Of a stretch of 64,000 nucleotides of DNA, positions 1,319 through 6,851 are shown piece by piece. The position numbers and the translations under genes are program-made. The notes under the pieces were generated by a model. The model saw nothing but the letters and a program-made list of their open reading frames with translations, did no database searches and was not told the origin of the DNA. Source of the stretch: Actinacidiphila yeochonensis CN732 (GTDB taxonomy: Bacteria; Actinomycetota; Actinomycetes; Streptomycetales; Streptomycetaceae); NCBI RefSeq assembly GCF_000745345.1, contig NZ_JQNR01000003.1, positions 1 through 64,000 of the forward strand, given 5' to 3'. Numbering within the stretch: the stretch's first letter is position 1; each line of letters starts with the position of its first letter.

Positions 1319-1966
1319 TCAGCGCCGCCTGCGCGGGCTGTGGGCCCGGTACGGACTGACGCTGGGCTCGCCGTCGATCCAGTAGCGCCAGGGGTGGGCC
1401 GCCCCGTCACCGCCGACCCCCGTGCGCGGCCCGCTGCGGACGGCCGCCGGCGGCGCGGGGGTGCCGGCGAGGACGCGGAAGGGGCCGCCGGCGGCGCAGG
1501 CGTCGGAGCCGTTCAGGGTGCGGTCGACGTCGAGGGCGGTGGCCAGCCGGGCGGGGCCCTGCGCGAGGTCGCTGTCCCGGCGTGAGGTGGGGCGGTGCGG
1601 GCGGGCGAGTTCCGCGCCCCGGATGATCGCGCCGGCCCGCAGCAGTACCCCGGAGGGACGGCCCACGGGTCCGCAGACCAGGTTCAGGCAGTTCCACATG
1701 CCGTAGGTGAAGTAGACGTAGGTGTGCCCGGGCGGTCCGAACATCACGGCGTTGCGGTCGGTGCGTCCGCGGTAGGCGTGGGAGCCGGGGTCGTTGGGCC
1801 CGTCGTAGGCCTCCACCTCGGTGAGGCGCAGTTCGATCGGCCCCGCGCCGGTGTGGCGCACCAGGACGCGTCCGAGCAGGTCGGGTGCGATCTCCAGGAC
1901 AGGCCGGTCGAAGAAGGAGCGGTCGAGCGGGGTCCGTTCCGGCGGTGTGGGCACGGGGGTGGGCAC
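1319..1966 (-). CDS. DNA-3-methyladenine glycosylase (AAG/MPG family)
   Basis: Base-excision repair enzyme that removes alkylated purines such as 3-methyladenine. About 215 residues, the usual length for the family. The catalytic-glutamate block reads [20 protein letters not shown], and the characteristic [10 protein letters not shown] and GVLLRAG segments follow; these form the nucleotide-flipping pocket in the family. Three in-frame GTG codons (1972, 1966, 1954) precede the conserved [16 protein letters not shown] stretch. I chose 1966 because a -10-like TACGCT (1975-1980 on the minus strand) ends eight bases upstream, which suggests a leaderless transcript. It is divergent from the PEBP gene. 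Residues before the conserved start are Pro-rich and would not fold, so the longer open frame is not credible. Confidence 0.9.
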
Positions 1967-2102
1967 GGGCACCGAGCGTAGTGGACGCCGACCGGCGGGT
2001 GGTCGGGGCGTCGGCGGGGGTGCGCGGGCGCCCGGGTCATAGGCTCGGGGCGCAAGAGGTGTCGATCGGGGTCCGCACAGGACTCCCGCAGGAGGTGTCC
2101 AG

Positions 2103-2642
2103 GTGACCGAGAAAGCACGGCGGCCGCTCCCCCATGACTTCCATCCGCCGGTGGCGTCGTTCTCGGTGGAGAGCGACGACGTGGCGCCGGGTGGCTCCCT
2201 GAAGCAGGACCAGGTGTTCGCGGGCGGGAACACCTCGCCGCAGCTGCGCTGGTCGGGCTTCCCCGAGGGGACGAAGAGCGTCGCCGTCACCTGCTACGAC
2301 CCGGACGCGCCGACCGGGAGCGGCTTCTGGCACTGGACGGTCTTCGACCTGCCGGTGTCGGTGACGGAGCTGCCGGCCGGTGCCGGCTCCGGGAGCTTCC
2401 CGGGGCTGCCGTCCGGCGCGGTCCACGTGCGCAACGACTACGGCACGCGGGACTTCGGCGGCGCGGCCCCGCCGCCCGGTGACGGCGAGCACCGCTACGT
2501 GTTCACCGTCTACGCGGTGGACGCCGAGAAGCTGGGCGTGGACGCCGACGCCTCGCCGGCGGTGGTCGGGTTCAACCTGCGCTTCCACGCGATCGGGCGG
2601 GCGCAGCTGGTCGGTACGTACGAGGTGCCGGCCGAGGGCTGA
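2103..2642 (+). CDS. YbhB/YbcL family (PEBP/Raf kinase inhibitor-like) protein
   Basis: A 179-residue phosphatidylethanolamine-binding-protein fold. The ligand-pocket signatures are visible: the segment around [29 protein letters not shown] holds the DPDAP motif, followed by [10 protein letters not shown] and later the [11 protein letters not shown] strand. Bacterial YbhB/YbcL proteins have no established substrate; binding of small anions or lipids is family knowledge, not seen here. No signal peptide, so probably cytoplasmic. The GTG start is preceded by AGGAGGT at good spacing, which fixes it. Divergently transcribed from the DNA glycosylase with about 135 bases between starts. Family call is firm, role unknown. 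Confidence 0.93.
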
Positions 2643-3159
2643 GCTCAGCCGGTGCGGTGCTCCTGCCCGGCCCCTCTCCCGGGGCCGCGGGGGCTGCCGC
2701 AGCGGGGCCGGGTCCCGGTCCGGGGTGCGACGTCCTGAGCACTCCGGTGGCGGACCCGGCCCCGCGTGCGTTGCGGGCAGCCGTGGTCCGCCGGATGCCG
2801 CGGAGCCGGCTTTCGGCGGTGAATTCCGTTGCGTCCGGGGCCTGTTGAGCGGACAGTAGGGGGGCCGGCGGTCGACCGGCTCCTCGGTCCCGCGGACCGG
2901 GCGGGCTGTCGCGTGCCGGCTGGCCGGCACCGCCTCGGCGGGGACGCCGGCCGGCTGTGCTGAGCGGTACCCGCCGCGCGCCGCCGGTCGTCTGCCGGAG
3001 CCCGGTCCGCAACCGGGTGTCCGCGCCGGACCCACGCGCTCCGGATGCCCGGCCCTCGGGCGACGGCATCCGGAGCGCCGCGCTTCCCCGCGCCGGAAGG
3101 CCCGGGCCGCGTCATCCGTTCGTCCCCTCGTCCGTTCGTTCTCTCGTCCGTTCATCCGT
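2643..3159. other. 517-base intergenic stretch, no gene seen; holds a 14-bp-stem hairpin
   Basis: Open frames here on both strands are Arg/Pro/Gly-rich and show no conserved motif, so I call none of them. A perfect 14-base inverted repeat, GCGCTCCGGATGCC at 3036-3049 and its complement at 3065-3078 with a 15-base loop, is terminator-like. It could end transcription of the PEBP gene or of the truncated recombinase. The right end is a simple repeat described separately. Confidence 0.6.
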
Positions 3160-3163
3160 TCAA
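3112..3163. repeat. Simple CGTCCGTT-type repeat at the broken end of the recombinase
   Basis: About 52 bases built from variants of an 8-base unit (ATCCGTTC, GTCCGTTC, GTTCGTTC). It starts exactly where recognisable recombinase coding sequence stops, so it marks the deletion or slippage junction that truncated the gene. Confidence 0.75.
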
Positions 3164-3741
3164 CCGTCGTGCGAGCCCTTCAGCTCTCCGGTGAGGAACT
3201 CCAGGCCGACGTCGCTCGCTTTGAGTTCCTCGGCGAGCATGGCGAGTTCGATGCCGCGGCCGAGGCGCTTGTGCTCGTGCACGACGAGGGTGACGGCGAT
3301 GCCGGAGGAGCGGATCTCACCGGCGAGCTTCACAGCGGCCTCCAGCTCGGGGCGCTTGGTAGCGCGGGTAGAGATCTTCTCCGAGAAGACCCGGGTCACC
3401 CCGGCCTCGGCGAGGGAGTCGAGTTGTGCGTCGAGGGACTGGCGGGCGGTCGAGGCTCGGGCGTAGCCGAGGCTGACGTGTCCGACCGGTCCGGCGCCAG
3501 CGCGCACGGGCCGGGGCAGTTCGGTCCACGCCGAGCCCGGCTTGCGTACGGCGGGGGTCGGGACGCTGAGGGCCTTGGCGAGTTGGGGTACGAGGCGGAA
3601 GCGGGCGGTGTGGTACTGGACAGCCACCTTGTTTTTGCCGGTCCGGCACGGGGAGCCCGTGGGGGCGGCGCAGGTGGACATCGGGCAGTCGTGTGATTCC
3701 ACGCGCTTGAAGTCGTCGCTCACAAGCCCGGACCGTTTCAT
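3160..3741 (-). pseudogene. Serine recombinase/resolvase, truncated after the catalytic domain
   Basis: 193 residues. Residues 1-60 form a small Cys-rich module of the type CPxxxC...PCRT followed by H, seen in actinobacterial mobile-element proteins. It is followed by a resolvase catalytic domain from about residue 90: LGYARASTARQSLDAQL carries the nucleophilic serine (the S of ARAST), and the VHEHKRLGRG segment supplies catalytic-domain arginine. The chain stops right after LEFLTGELKGSHD, a point where full-length relatives continue into the long E helix and a C-terminal helix-turn-helix. Those parts are missing, and no single-base correction recovers them, so this is a genuine truncation. 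A free catalytic domain without the DNA-binding domain is unlikely to recombine DNA. The start codon overlaps the first of the GTTTCA half-sites. Likely the remnant of an integrated element. Confidence 0.85.
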
Positions 3742-3846
3742 GAGGGTGTTTCAGACGTCCAGTCGTTTGAAACGACTCATGAAACATGATCGCCGCAGGT
3801 GGACCGCCGGGCGGCCGGGTGTTTCACGAGCGACCACCTATGAAAC
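3735..3846. promoter_or_regulatory. Cluster of six GTTTCA/TGAAAC half-sites upstream of the recombinase fragment
   Basis: GTTTCA at 3735, 3748 and 3821 and TGAAAC at 3768, 3780 and 3841. The core is a 17-base palindrome AGTCGTTTGAAACGACT (3761-3777). Around it, GTTTCATGAG (3735-3744) and its exact complement CTCATGAAAC (3776-3785) form a second, nested inverted repeat. The outermost half-site overlaps the recombinase start codon. The layout suits either a recombination (res-like) site with several dimer-binding subsites or an operator array for an element-borne repressor. Function is inferred. Confidence 0.7.
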
Positions 3847-3957
3847 AGCCACCAAGCCCGCACCATGATCAATCTCAGTGCCAACCACGGTTCCATTGTC
3901 TCCGAAGCCGGACACGGACGCATCGGCCTGACGGGCGCACCACCTCGAAAGTTCTTG

Positions 3958-5337
3958 TCAGGCTCCGCCCCAGACGGCTGCGTCCGTGCCCCACAGACCC
4001 GGCGGGCGTGCCCAGTTCACCGGGCCTCCCTCGTACGACACCGGCGGCAGCGCATGCCGCAGCCGGCCCATGGGGCTGTCAGTCTCGGTCAGCCAGCGCC
4101 CGGCGTCGAAGCCATCATCCTCGCCCGGAGCGGGGGCCAGGTCGTGGACCAGCCAGTGGGCGGTCTGCGTCAGAGCCAGGCGGACCAGCCTGGTGCCGCC
4201 CGTGCGGTGCTGCTCGGTGAGCGCGCGCAGCACCCCGGCCGCCAGCAGATAGCCGGTGCCGTGGTCGAGCGCCTGGGCGGGCAGCGCGCCGGGCGAGTCC
4301 GGCGAGTCCTCCAGTTCGGCGATGCCGGTGGCCACTTGGACCAGGCTGTCGAAGCCGCGCCGCTCGTGCCACGGCCCGTAACGGCCCCACGCGGACAGCT
4401 GGGCGATCACCAGACCCGGACGACGCCCGGCGAGCGCCTCGGGCGTCAGCCCGAACCGGTCCAGCGCGCCCGGCCGGTAACCGGTAACCACCACATGCGC
4501 CTCGTCGAGCAGCCCCTCGAAGACCCGGCGGCCGGTGGCGTCACCCAGGTCCAGGGTGGTCGAGCGTTTCCCCATCCCCGTGTCGTTGTGGGCCTCCTGG
4601 CTCTCCGCCAGCTGTGGGGCGTCGATCCGCAGCACGTCCGCCCCCAGCAGCGCCAGCGTTCGGGTGGCGACCGGCCCGGCGAGCACCCGGGTCAGATCCA
4701 GAACACGCAGCCCTGCGCACGGCAGCGCGGCGTCACCGAGCACCCGGTTCGGGGCGTCGGCGACGCGCGCTGTCGTCAGCAGCGGCTGCCCCGCGACCAG
4801 GACCCCCTGCTCGCTCTTGGCCCACTCCTCGGGACTGCGTGCCGCGACGGCCAGACCGCCCGCCGCGTACACGGTCTCCTCCACCTCCAGCGCGGTACGC
4901 CCCGCGATCGCCCCGGCCACCGCCTCCTCGCTGGCGTCCCCCGGCACCCCGAGAGCGGTGAGCAACCGGGCCCGATGGTGCGGGTAGTTGGCGTGCGTAC
5001 GGACCCATCCATCGGCCGCCCGCCAGAACCGGGACAGCGGCGCGAAGGTCGACCACGCCTGCCCGTCGACCCGCACCAGCCGGTCGCTGAGGAACGCCGT
5101 CGCGACCGACTCGTCGTCGACCCGCACCCGGGGCACGGGCCGCCCCGTGCGTACGGAAGTGAGCTCGGCGGCCGCGAGCGAGCACACCGCGACAGTGGCC
5201 CGCGCCAGCTCCATGACGGGCAGCCGCGCCGGCAGTCCGCCGGACGGACCGCCGTAGGACACCCGGTCGAGCAGAGAAGAATCGGCACCCAGTGCCGCCC
5301 AAGCCTGCGAAGCACCTGCGAAGATTGGAGGTCTCAC
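3958..5337 (-). CDS. CaiB/BaiF-type (class III) CoA transferase, double-domain
   Basis: 459 residues; transfers CoA between carboxylic acids in the cytoplasm. The clear family block lies in the C-terminal half: GLRVLDLTRVLAGPVATRTLALLGADVLRI is the classic CoA-transferase III opening, followed by GKRSTTLDL and the RPGALDRFGLTPEAL segment. Residues 1-210 look like a degenerate copy of the same fold (GLAVAARSPEEWAKSEQG resembles the second-domain part), so the protein seems to be a tandem or swapped-domain variant. The substrate cannot be told. The GTG at 5337 lies about six bases after a -10-like CATAGT, suggesting a leaderless transcript. A 15-base palindrome overlaps this promoter. It sits alone beside a mobile-element remnant, so acquisition by transfer is possible. 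Confidence 0.85.
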   Translation of the reverse strand: MRPPIFAGASQAWAALGADSSLLDRVSYGGPSGGLPARLPVMELARATVAVCSLAAAELTSVRTGRPVPRVRVDDESVATAFLSDRLVRVDGQAWSTFAPLSRFWRAADGWVRTHANYPHHRARLLTALGVPGDASEEAVAGAIAGRTALEVEETVYAAGGLAVAARSPEEWAKSEQGVLVAGQPLLTTARVADAPNRVLGDAALPCAGLRVLDLTRVLAGPVATRTLALLGADVLRIDAPQLAESQEAHNDTGMGKRSTTLDLGDATGRRVFEGLLDEAHVVVTGYRPGALDRFGLTPEALAGRRPGLVIAQLSAWGRYGPWHERRGFDSLVQVATGIAELEDSPDSPGALPAQALDHGTGYLLAAGVLRALTEQHRTGGTRLVRLALTQTAHWLVHDLAPAPGEDDGFDAGRWLTETDSPMGRLRHALPPVSYEGGPVNWARPPGLWGTDAAVWGGA

Positions 5338-5347
5338 ACCCGCACTA

Positions 5348-5362
5348 TGGCACTAAGTGCCA
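5348..5362. promoter_or_regulatory. Perfect palindrome TGGCACTAAGTGCCA over the CoA-transferase promoter
   Basis: Seven-base arms around one central base. On the minus strand it lies immediately upstream of, and partly overlapping, the putative -10 CATAGT of the CoA-transferase gene. The position is that of a repressor operator (TetR- or GntR-sized site). No regulator gene is adjacent. Confidence 0.6.
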
Positions 5363-5528
5363 CCTACAGGAAGGGTCCCGGGCGCCGTTCCTCGCTTCGC
5401 CGCACGCGATTGGTCGGCGGCGTGCGCCGGGGAGCGAGGGCGGGGCACAGGCCCGGGGAAATTGCGTTGTCGGGCCCTGGGGCCGGGGGCACTCTGGTCC
5501 CACTGCGACGACCCGTGAGGTGGGTGGA

Positions 5529-6029
5529 ATGCGCGAGACCCTGGTACTGAACGCGAGCTTCGAGCCGTTGTCGACGGTGTCCCTGCACCGGGCGGTCGTG
5601 CTGGTGATGCAGGACAAGGCGGTGGTGGAGCAGGCCCATCCGGGGCTGCGGGTGCGCGCGGCGCAGGTGGAGATACCGGTGCCGCAGGTGATCAGGCTGT
5701 GCCGGTACGTCCGGGTGCCGTTCCGACAACGCGCGCCGTGGTCGCGGCGGGGGGTGCTGGTGCGGGACCGCCACCGGTGCGCCTACTGCGGCCGGCGGGC
5801 CACGACCGTGGACCACGTGCAGCCGAGGTCCCGGGGCGGCGGCGACACCTGGCTGAACACGGTGGCGGCATGCTCCGAGGACAACCAGCGCAAGGCGGAC
5901 CGCACGCCGGAGCAGGCGGGGATGCGGCTGCTGGTGCGGCCGTTCGAGCCGACCCCGGCGGACGCGCTGCTGCTGGCGCTCGGGGTGCGCGGCCGCGCCG
6001 GGCTGGAGTGGCTGGCCGCGCCGGCCTGA
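5529..6029 (+). CDS. HNH endonuclease family protein
   Basis: 166 residues. The C-terminal half has a complete HNH signature: CAYCGRRATTVDHVQPRSRGG gives the first zinc-binding CxxC pair and the catalytic DH, then WLNTVAACSEDNQRKADRTPEQAGMRL gives the second metal half and the N/K residues. The N-terminal half (VLNASFEPLSTVSLHRAVVL) is the DUF-type extension commonly found in actinobacterial chromosomal HNH proteins. Biological role is unknown; such genes are ubiquitous housekeeping-like neighbours rather than obvious toxins or homing enzymes. The start is the ATG at 5529, with GAGGTGG just upstream. A longer open frame upstream of it has no conserved content. Confidence 0.92.
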   Translation: MRETLVLNASFEPLSTVSLHRAVVLVMQDKAVVEQAHPGLRVRAAQVEIPVPQVIRLCRYVRVPFRQRAPWSRRGVLVRDRHRCAYCGRRATTVDHVQPRSRGGGDTWLNTVAACSEDNQRKADRTPEQAGMRLLVRPFEPTPADALLLALGVRGRAGLEWLAAPA

Positions 6030-6083
6030 GCGGTGCCGGCGCGGGACGGGCCCCGGGGCGGGGAAGTCCAGGGGCCCGTCCGG

Positions 6084-6851
6084 CTATCCGAGCAGCAGTT
6101 GGACGATCGCTGCGAGGCCGACGGCGACGATGAGGCCGCGCAGCACCGCGGGCGGCAGTCGGCGGCCCACCCTGGCCCCGGCGATCCCGCCGAGGGTGGC
6201 TCCGGCGGCGACCAGTCCGACGGCCGCCCAGTCCATGTGGGCGGCGGCGATGAAGAAGACCGCGGCCACCCCGTTGACCAGGGCGGCCAGCACGTTCTTC
6301 AGGGCGTTGGCGCGTTGCAGCGTGGCGTCGAGCAGCAGGCCCATGAGGGAGAGGTAGAGGACGCCCTGGGCGGCGCCGAAGTAGCCGCCGTAGACGCTGG
6401 CGAGCAGGATGCCGACCGCCAGCAGCGGCCCGCCGTGCGCGGGGGCGGTGGTCCCGCTGCGCTCGCGGCGGGCCTGGAGGGCACGGGCCAGCCGCGGTTG
6501 GAGGACGACGAGGACGAGGGCGGCGGCGACCAGCGCCGGCACGATGGCGTCGAAGGCCTTGGACGGCAGGGTGACGAGCAGGACCGCGCCCGTCACTCCG
6601 CCGGCGAGGGCGATCACCCCGAGCCGGAGCAGCAGTCCGCGCTGGCCGCTGAGCTCGCGGCGGTAGCCGATGGCGCCGGCGACCGAGCCGGGGACCAGTC
6701 CGAGCGCGTTGGAGACGTTGGCGGTGACGGGGGGCAGGCCGACGGCGAGGAGGACGGGGAAGGTCAGCAGGGTTCCGGAGCCGACGACGGTGTTGATGGT
6801 GCCGGCGCCGACACCGGCGGCGAACACGGCGACAGCCTCTGCTGGGGACAT
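6084..6851 (-). CDS. TSUP family (TauE/SafE-like) membrane transporter
   Basis: 255 residues with about eight hydrophobic segments spread along the chain. The opening VGAGTINTVVGSGTLLTFPVLLAVGLPPVTANVSNALGL is the diagnostic TSUP repeat (GxGxxxxxxGSG...P...AN.SN), and a second, inverted-repeat copy occurs in the C-terminal half (GGYFGAAQGVLYLSLMGLL...ANALKN). Family members export sulfite, sulfoacetate or other organic anions; the substrate here cannot be read. Located in the cytoplasmic membrane. It is convergent with the HNH gene, with about 54 bases between stops. Confidence 0.92.
   Translation of the reverse strand: MSPAEAVAVFAAGVGAGTINTVVGSGTLLTFPVLLAVGLPPVTANVSNALGLVPGSVAGAIGYRRELSGQRGLLLRLGVIALAGGVTGAVLLVTLPSKAFDAIVPALVAAALVLVVLQPRLARALQARRERSGTTAPAHGGPLLAVGILLASVYGGYFGAAQGVLYLSLMGLLLDATLQRANALKNVLAALVNGVAAVFFIAAAHMDWAAVGLVAAGATLGGIAGARVGRRLPPAVLRGLIVAVGLAAIVQLLLG

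Follow-up and report, generated by a model that had tools for sequence, protein, structure and literature searches.

In Tn3, the resolution site res spans 114 bp (PMC9943657), and resolvase binding at res autoregulates the transposon's genes (PMC7157771). In resH, the site of the serine resolvase Sin, the accessory part is one direct-repeat site together with HU (PMC9943657). Tn4556 from Streptomyces fradiae is a 6.6-kb transposon with 38-bp terminal repeats, 5-bp duplications and a PF01526 transposase; its TnpR was placed in PF00589, the phage-integrase (tyrosine) family, and its proposed res is a different one (PMC6403206). For mosaic Tn3 transposons of the Tn5501/TnTsp1 type, it has been proposed that res site I is where transposon halves are exchanged (PMC7157771).

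We analysed 64,000 nt of Actinacidiphila yeochonensis CN732 (NZ_JQNR01000003.1, positions 1-64,000, forward strand), hereafter the window, in which an array of GTTTCA/TGAAAC half-sites adjoins a truncated recombinase gene. Because complete Tn3 elements in other genomes carry the same resolvase together with the same array, this array is very probably the res of a Tn3-family transposon and the target of TnpR, the serine resolvase encoded next to it. On this reading, a motif array that recurs across actinobacteria gains a function.

As in Tn3 and gamma-delta, the putative res, 112 bp long, lies directly upstream of a serine resolvase gene with its site I distal to tnpR, in elements whose terminal repeats are ~38 bp long and whose target duplications are 5 bp. 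Site I consists of inverted half-sites around a 2-bp centre, and its crossover role is putative. The locus differs from Tn3 and gamma-delta in its half-site (GTTTCATAGG), in the 26-bp length of site I and in a resolvase of ~290 aa with an N-terminal zinc-finger-like domain, against ~185 aa. The accessory half-sites run > > < <, with 12, 20 and 13 bp between starts, and have no match to the II+III layout; since they are not divisible into two separate inverted repeats, the arrangement is not that of a canonical Tn3 res, and assigning discrete sites II and III within them is impossible from the sequence. Sin belongs to the same superfamily by profile match and shares same-direction half-sites in the accessory region, but here there are four such half-sites, symmetric overall, in place of the single direct repeat of resH. 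Similar to Tn4556, the transposons described below are Streptomyces class II elements of comparable size with ~38-bp repeats, 5-bp duplications and PF01526, but their TnpR is a PF00239 serine resolvase rather than a PF00589 tyrosine recombinase. Our literature search turned up a single Streptomyces res, the one proposed for Tn4556, and it is of another type. The system is of a known kind and its resolvase/res lineage is apparently undescribed; no description of this res was found in open-literature searches, subscription papers lying outside their scope.

The half-site array and the resolvase gene

For comparison we used 80 recombinase relatives from bacterial genomes together with three plasmid copies. 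A usable start and upstream region was available at 80 comparable actinobacterial loci, whose encoded recombinases are ~58-95% identical to that of the window.

GTTTCA/TGAAAC hexamers occur at 3735, 3748, 3768, 3780, 3821 and 3841 and nowhere else in the window, bearing out the six half-sites in 112 bp (3735-3846) described in the original prediction. Dinucleotide shuffles averaged 3.8 such hexamers per whole window, so the clustering of all six is far beyond chance. In gene orientation, counted from the ATG assumed in that prediction, they lie at -105 (>), -85 (<), -44 (>), -32 (>), -12 (<) and +1 (<), and the array is best parsed as a 26-bp site I and a 51-bp block of four half-sites (Table 1). 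A 17-base central palindrome inside an exact 10-bp inverted repeat had also been noted. Both sequences are there, the repeat at 3735-3744/3776-3785 and the palindrome, AGTCGTTTGAAACGACT, at 3761-3777 (8-nt arms, 1-nt centre; once in the window, 0 expected), but the palindrome is mostly peculiar to the window copy, and most relatives have AGTTGTTGCAAACGACT or forms diverged further at its position. We therefore rejected it as the functional core.

The recombinase was first called on the minus strand from 3741 to 3160, its frame stopping at 3160-3162; tnpR homology ends at 3166-3167 in nearly all loci. Its truncation is confirmed: the window protein has 193 aa, compared with about 290-295 aa in intact relatives, and is cut near codon 192 within the catalytic domain, so that it lacks the C-terminal DNA-binding region. 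The supposed overlap of the array with the start codon found no support. Many relatives show a frameshift or a stop in the frame opened by the ATG inside the last half-site; what they have in common is a codon-7 GTG, in some of them ATG, and on plasmid pSTS2 the RefSeq start of tnpR is this codon-7 position. The window gene thus probably starts at the GTG at 3723-3721 and not at the ATG in the last half-site, which would put the array wholly upstream of the gene and corrects the likely start codon of the resolvase group.

Profile searches with the window protein matched PF24623, a putative DNA-binding phage zinc finger (E 3e-12), in an N-terminal domain with invariant Cys and His residues, followed by the PF00239 catalytic domain (E 3e-14, profile positions 2-101 of 145), which intact relatives also encode. 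Profile comparison showed resemblance to DNA invertases, Tn3 and gamma-delta resolvases and Sin, and gamma-delta/Tn3 resolvase was among the best PDB matches. Structure prediction, using an alignment of related genomic loci with plasmid-derived rows left out, gave a weak model (mean pLDDT 62, about 80 in the catalytic domain, poor outside the catalytic and C-terminal helical regions) whose fold match to gamma-delta resolvase (1gdt) was consistent, with a weak TM-score. The zinc-finger domain has no structural support, because the model gives no confidence there.

Table 1 Features of the window locus and complete transposons carrying res and tnpR in other genomes
Feature	Position or size	Strand	Description
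tnpR fragment	3166-3723	minus	N-terminal zinc-finger-like domain and first part of serine-recombinase catalytic domain
Putative res accessory region (sites II/III equivalent)	3735-3785	minus	half-sites 3780-3785 (>), 3768-3773 (>), 3748-3753 (<), 3735-3740 (<)
Spacer, site I to accessory half-sites	3786-3820		site I at an unchanged distance in 54/70 loci
Putative res site I (crossover site)	3821-3846	minus	GTTTCATAGGTG-GT-CGCTCGTGAAAC in gene orientation, central dinucleotide GT; conserved in relatives
Terminal inverted repeat, type D, Tn3-family	3867-3911	minus	outer end 3911; 33/38 against type-D consensus
Transposon L141	6,913 bp		37-38-bp terminal repeats; duplication CAGAT if one terminal base changed
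Transposon L142	6,771 bp		in S. wedmorensis; 39-bp terminal repeats; exact target duplication AACTC
Transposon L143	6,467 bp		45-bp terminal repeats; probable duplication ATTTC, one ragged end

Transposons carrying the array and its resolvase

Homology among relatives begins at the outer edge of site I, which in nearly all loci, and across different contexts, is the left limit of the conserved DNA block, and it ends shortly past tnpR. On the right, several types of terminal repeat form the ends, some of them 38 bp long and starting GGGG, and at many loci such a repeat lies within about 50 bp of the tnpR stop. One right-end repeat type also bounds elements with other serine resolvases. At L117, L120, L128 and L130, the type-A right terminal repeat is preceded by different C-terminal resolvase sequences.

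In three complete transposons (L141-L143), res and tnpR are internal, between tnpA and the right terminal repeat. Unlike in Tn3 and gamma-delta, tnpA is distal and points the same way as tnpR, and cargo separates the two (an ABC transporter, an AraC-type regulator and a DinB-like protein). Their interiors encode TnpA (PF01526/PF13700) and TnpR (PF00239); the Tn3-type DDE transposase PF01526 was also found at L144, and Tn3 transposase genes or fragments were present in all 23 genomes tested. The target duplications of these elements and of L174 (below) were read by eye from the element ends. Relatives thus provide all three marks of Tn3-family membership: a PF01526 transposase, ~38-bp terminal inverted repeats and a 5-bp target duplication. 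A stand-alone mobile unit of ~1.1 kb, ending at site I and the right terminal repeat, was rejected because that right end is common to elements with other resolvases and because complete transposons were found; integron-like attC, IS607-like and IS200-like elements, suggested by the asymmetric ends, were dropped on the same evidence.

The res-tnpR block is 89-95% identical at the DNA level between elements with different terminal repeats, as between L002 (type A2) and L003 (B) at 94.6%, L003 and L010 (A) at 93.6%, and L003 and L008 (C) at 93.3%. Elements sharing a repeat type are no closer in this block (L005 and L008, both C, 89.7%). High identity across repeat types, no higher within one, implies that res-tnpR has been exchanged between Tn3 scaffolds, bounded at the left by site I, a limit that fits resolvase-mediated exchange. 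The right limit lies just after the tnpR stop codon, and since the shared block occurs with at least four terminal-repeat types, a second boundary there would also be needed. Site I is also where exchange is proposed in Tn5501/TnTsp1-type transposons, but here the shared block is res plus tnpR, joined to those several repeat types. At L036 (Catenulispora rubra, about 3243-4575), a single site I lies between two tnpR genes placed head to head, the outcome expected if inverted copies had crossed over at site I. Tn3 transposase genes lie on both sides of such paired tnpR genes with a common site I at L036 and L144.

Such behaviour as an independent module across differing terminal repeats also suits a rival in which the same resolvase and res serve primarily in multimer resolution of plasmids or islands (or in inversion) and are carried by Tn3 transposons only occasionally. 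Copies occur on Streptomyces plasmids, among them pSTS2, where the annotated stretch holds no Tn3 transposase; plasmid multimers may thus be resolved by the module as well. As a primary role, however, this is unlikely, given the position of the block inside three complete Tn3-family elements, the terminal repeats that closely follow tnpR at many loci and, in the window itself, a Tn3-type repeat 20 bp outside site I.

Conservation and probable function of the array

Site I, searched as GTTTCA-N14-TGAAAC with at most 2 of 12 mismatches, was present in 70 of the 80 loci, the gap being 14 bp in 65 of these 70; the same search in blocks further upstream matched 2 of 1,259 controls. Accessory half-sites with 0-1 mismatch were found in 72/80 loci at 3780-3785 (-44), 55/80 at 3768-3773 (-32), 74/80 at 3748-3753 (-12) and 78/80 at 3735-3740 (+1). 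The -32 half-site is usually GTTGCA, with an exact GTTTCA in only 16 of the 80. At the centre of site I, a conserved G and C flank a variable NN (GT 34, AC 8, AG 7, AT 6, TT 5, others), as a serine recombinase crossover dinucleotide would show. Beside homologues of ~47-51% identity (L148-L151) the array is absent, which indicates that it belongs to this resolvase group.

The original prediction had left room for a motif missing beside homologous recombinases and without conserved spacing; the outcome was the opposite, the array adjoining almost all intact homologues at fixed spacing. Its suggestion of a res site or a multi-dimer operator beside a truncated recombinase is supported on the res side by this spacing and by the three complete Tn3 elements, and its statement that no feature explains the array was wrong, since the adjoining resolvase accounts for it.

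The operator alternative holds that a repressor, either the recombinase or a host regulator, binds the half-sites for transcription control without recombination. The array does sit immediately upstream of the GTG start, and Tn3 resolvases autoregulate from res, but the operator is highly improbable as the whole explanation: site I limits homology across contexts, a single site I is common to two inverted tnpR copies, and the variable NN within G-NN-C is that of a crossover site. Moreover, the 26-bp site I pattern occurs nowhere in the host genome outside the array, which makes a host regulon unlikely and led us to reject a host regulator's operator. Given the autoregulation of Tn3 genes by resolvase bound at res (PMC7157771), an operator role may coexist with the res function. 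Clustering by chance, or a low-complexity leftover devoid of function, would fit a remnant with a truncated gene but has a negligible probability, with all six hexamers of 64 kb inside 112 bp and a spacing kept in tens of independent loci against almost none of the controls, and we rejected it as the origin of the array family.

For the array as a Tn3-family res, we infer binding, crossover position and synapse architecture by analogy with Tn3. Replicative transposition of an intact element would fuse donor and target; TnpR dimers would bind the half-sites in both transposon copies, and the accessory region would build the synapse. TnpR would then cut and exchange strands at the central dinucleotide of site I, separating the replicons. 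A broader reading, which we put forward tentatively, is that serine-resolvase res would have a third architectural class, made up of a 26-bp crossover site plus a symmetric block of four accessory half-sites; its resolvases would carry an additional N-terminal domain that binds zinc and contacts DNA, and the res-tnpR cassette would move between Tn3 scaffolds via site I recombination. With their varied central dinucleotides and unusual accessory layout, the GC-rich res sites of the family form a natural series on which synapse building by serine resolvases and module exchange in Tn3 transposons could be tested.

The remnant in the window

As judged from its parts, the window feature is a 746-bp fossil (3166-3911) comprising a terminal repeat, res and a partial tnpR, which gives exact ends to a transposon remnant otherwise read as an orphan recombinase. 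The next best match to the type-D consensus in the window is 23/38. The chromosomal flank is homologous to Streptomyces sp. 8K308 (L044) only as far as 3911, just outside which lies a would-be 5-bp target, GTGTC; the other transposon end is lost. The type-D repeat, 20 bp and site I follow one another in the same way at L011 and L153. At L174, type-D repeats (45 bp, 95.6% identical) bound a 4.4-kb element with the duplication GACAA.

The remnant holds no Tn3 transposase, and no second copy of any terminal-repeat type was found in the window. Fossil status follows from this lack of a second repeat, from a site I pattern confined to the array and from a host genome with only one short tnpA remnant, on another contig. 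Without the arrival of a related resolvase in the cell, the unit is probably inert.

Tn3 terminal repeats of type D are scattered over the family, occurring in 31 of 298 Streptomycetaceae genomes (loci L152-L171); among the type-D loci read, site I adjoins the repeat only in the window and at L011 and L153. The L174 element (G235, 1755-6159) encodes a tnpA fragment, a beta-lactamase-like serine hydrolase, a Clp-N-like protein and another serine resolvase, identities that were read from translation.

Between the neighbouring gene and the tnpR remnant, a perfect 14-nt inverted repeat (GCGCTCCGGATGCC / GGCATCCGGAGCGC, 15-nt loop) at 3036-3078 is terminator-like. Directly past the end of tnpR homology, short tandem TCRTCCGTTC copies lie 16, 16 and 8 bp apart at 3112-3161 and may be related to the deletion that truncated tnpR. 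Streptomyces sp. 8K308 has a damaged res-tnpR copy of its own, located some hundreds of bp past the orthologous CoA-transferase gene, a pattern that two independent hits on the region would leave.
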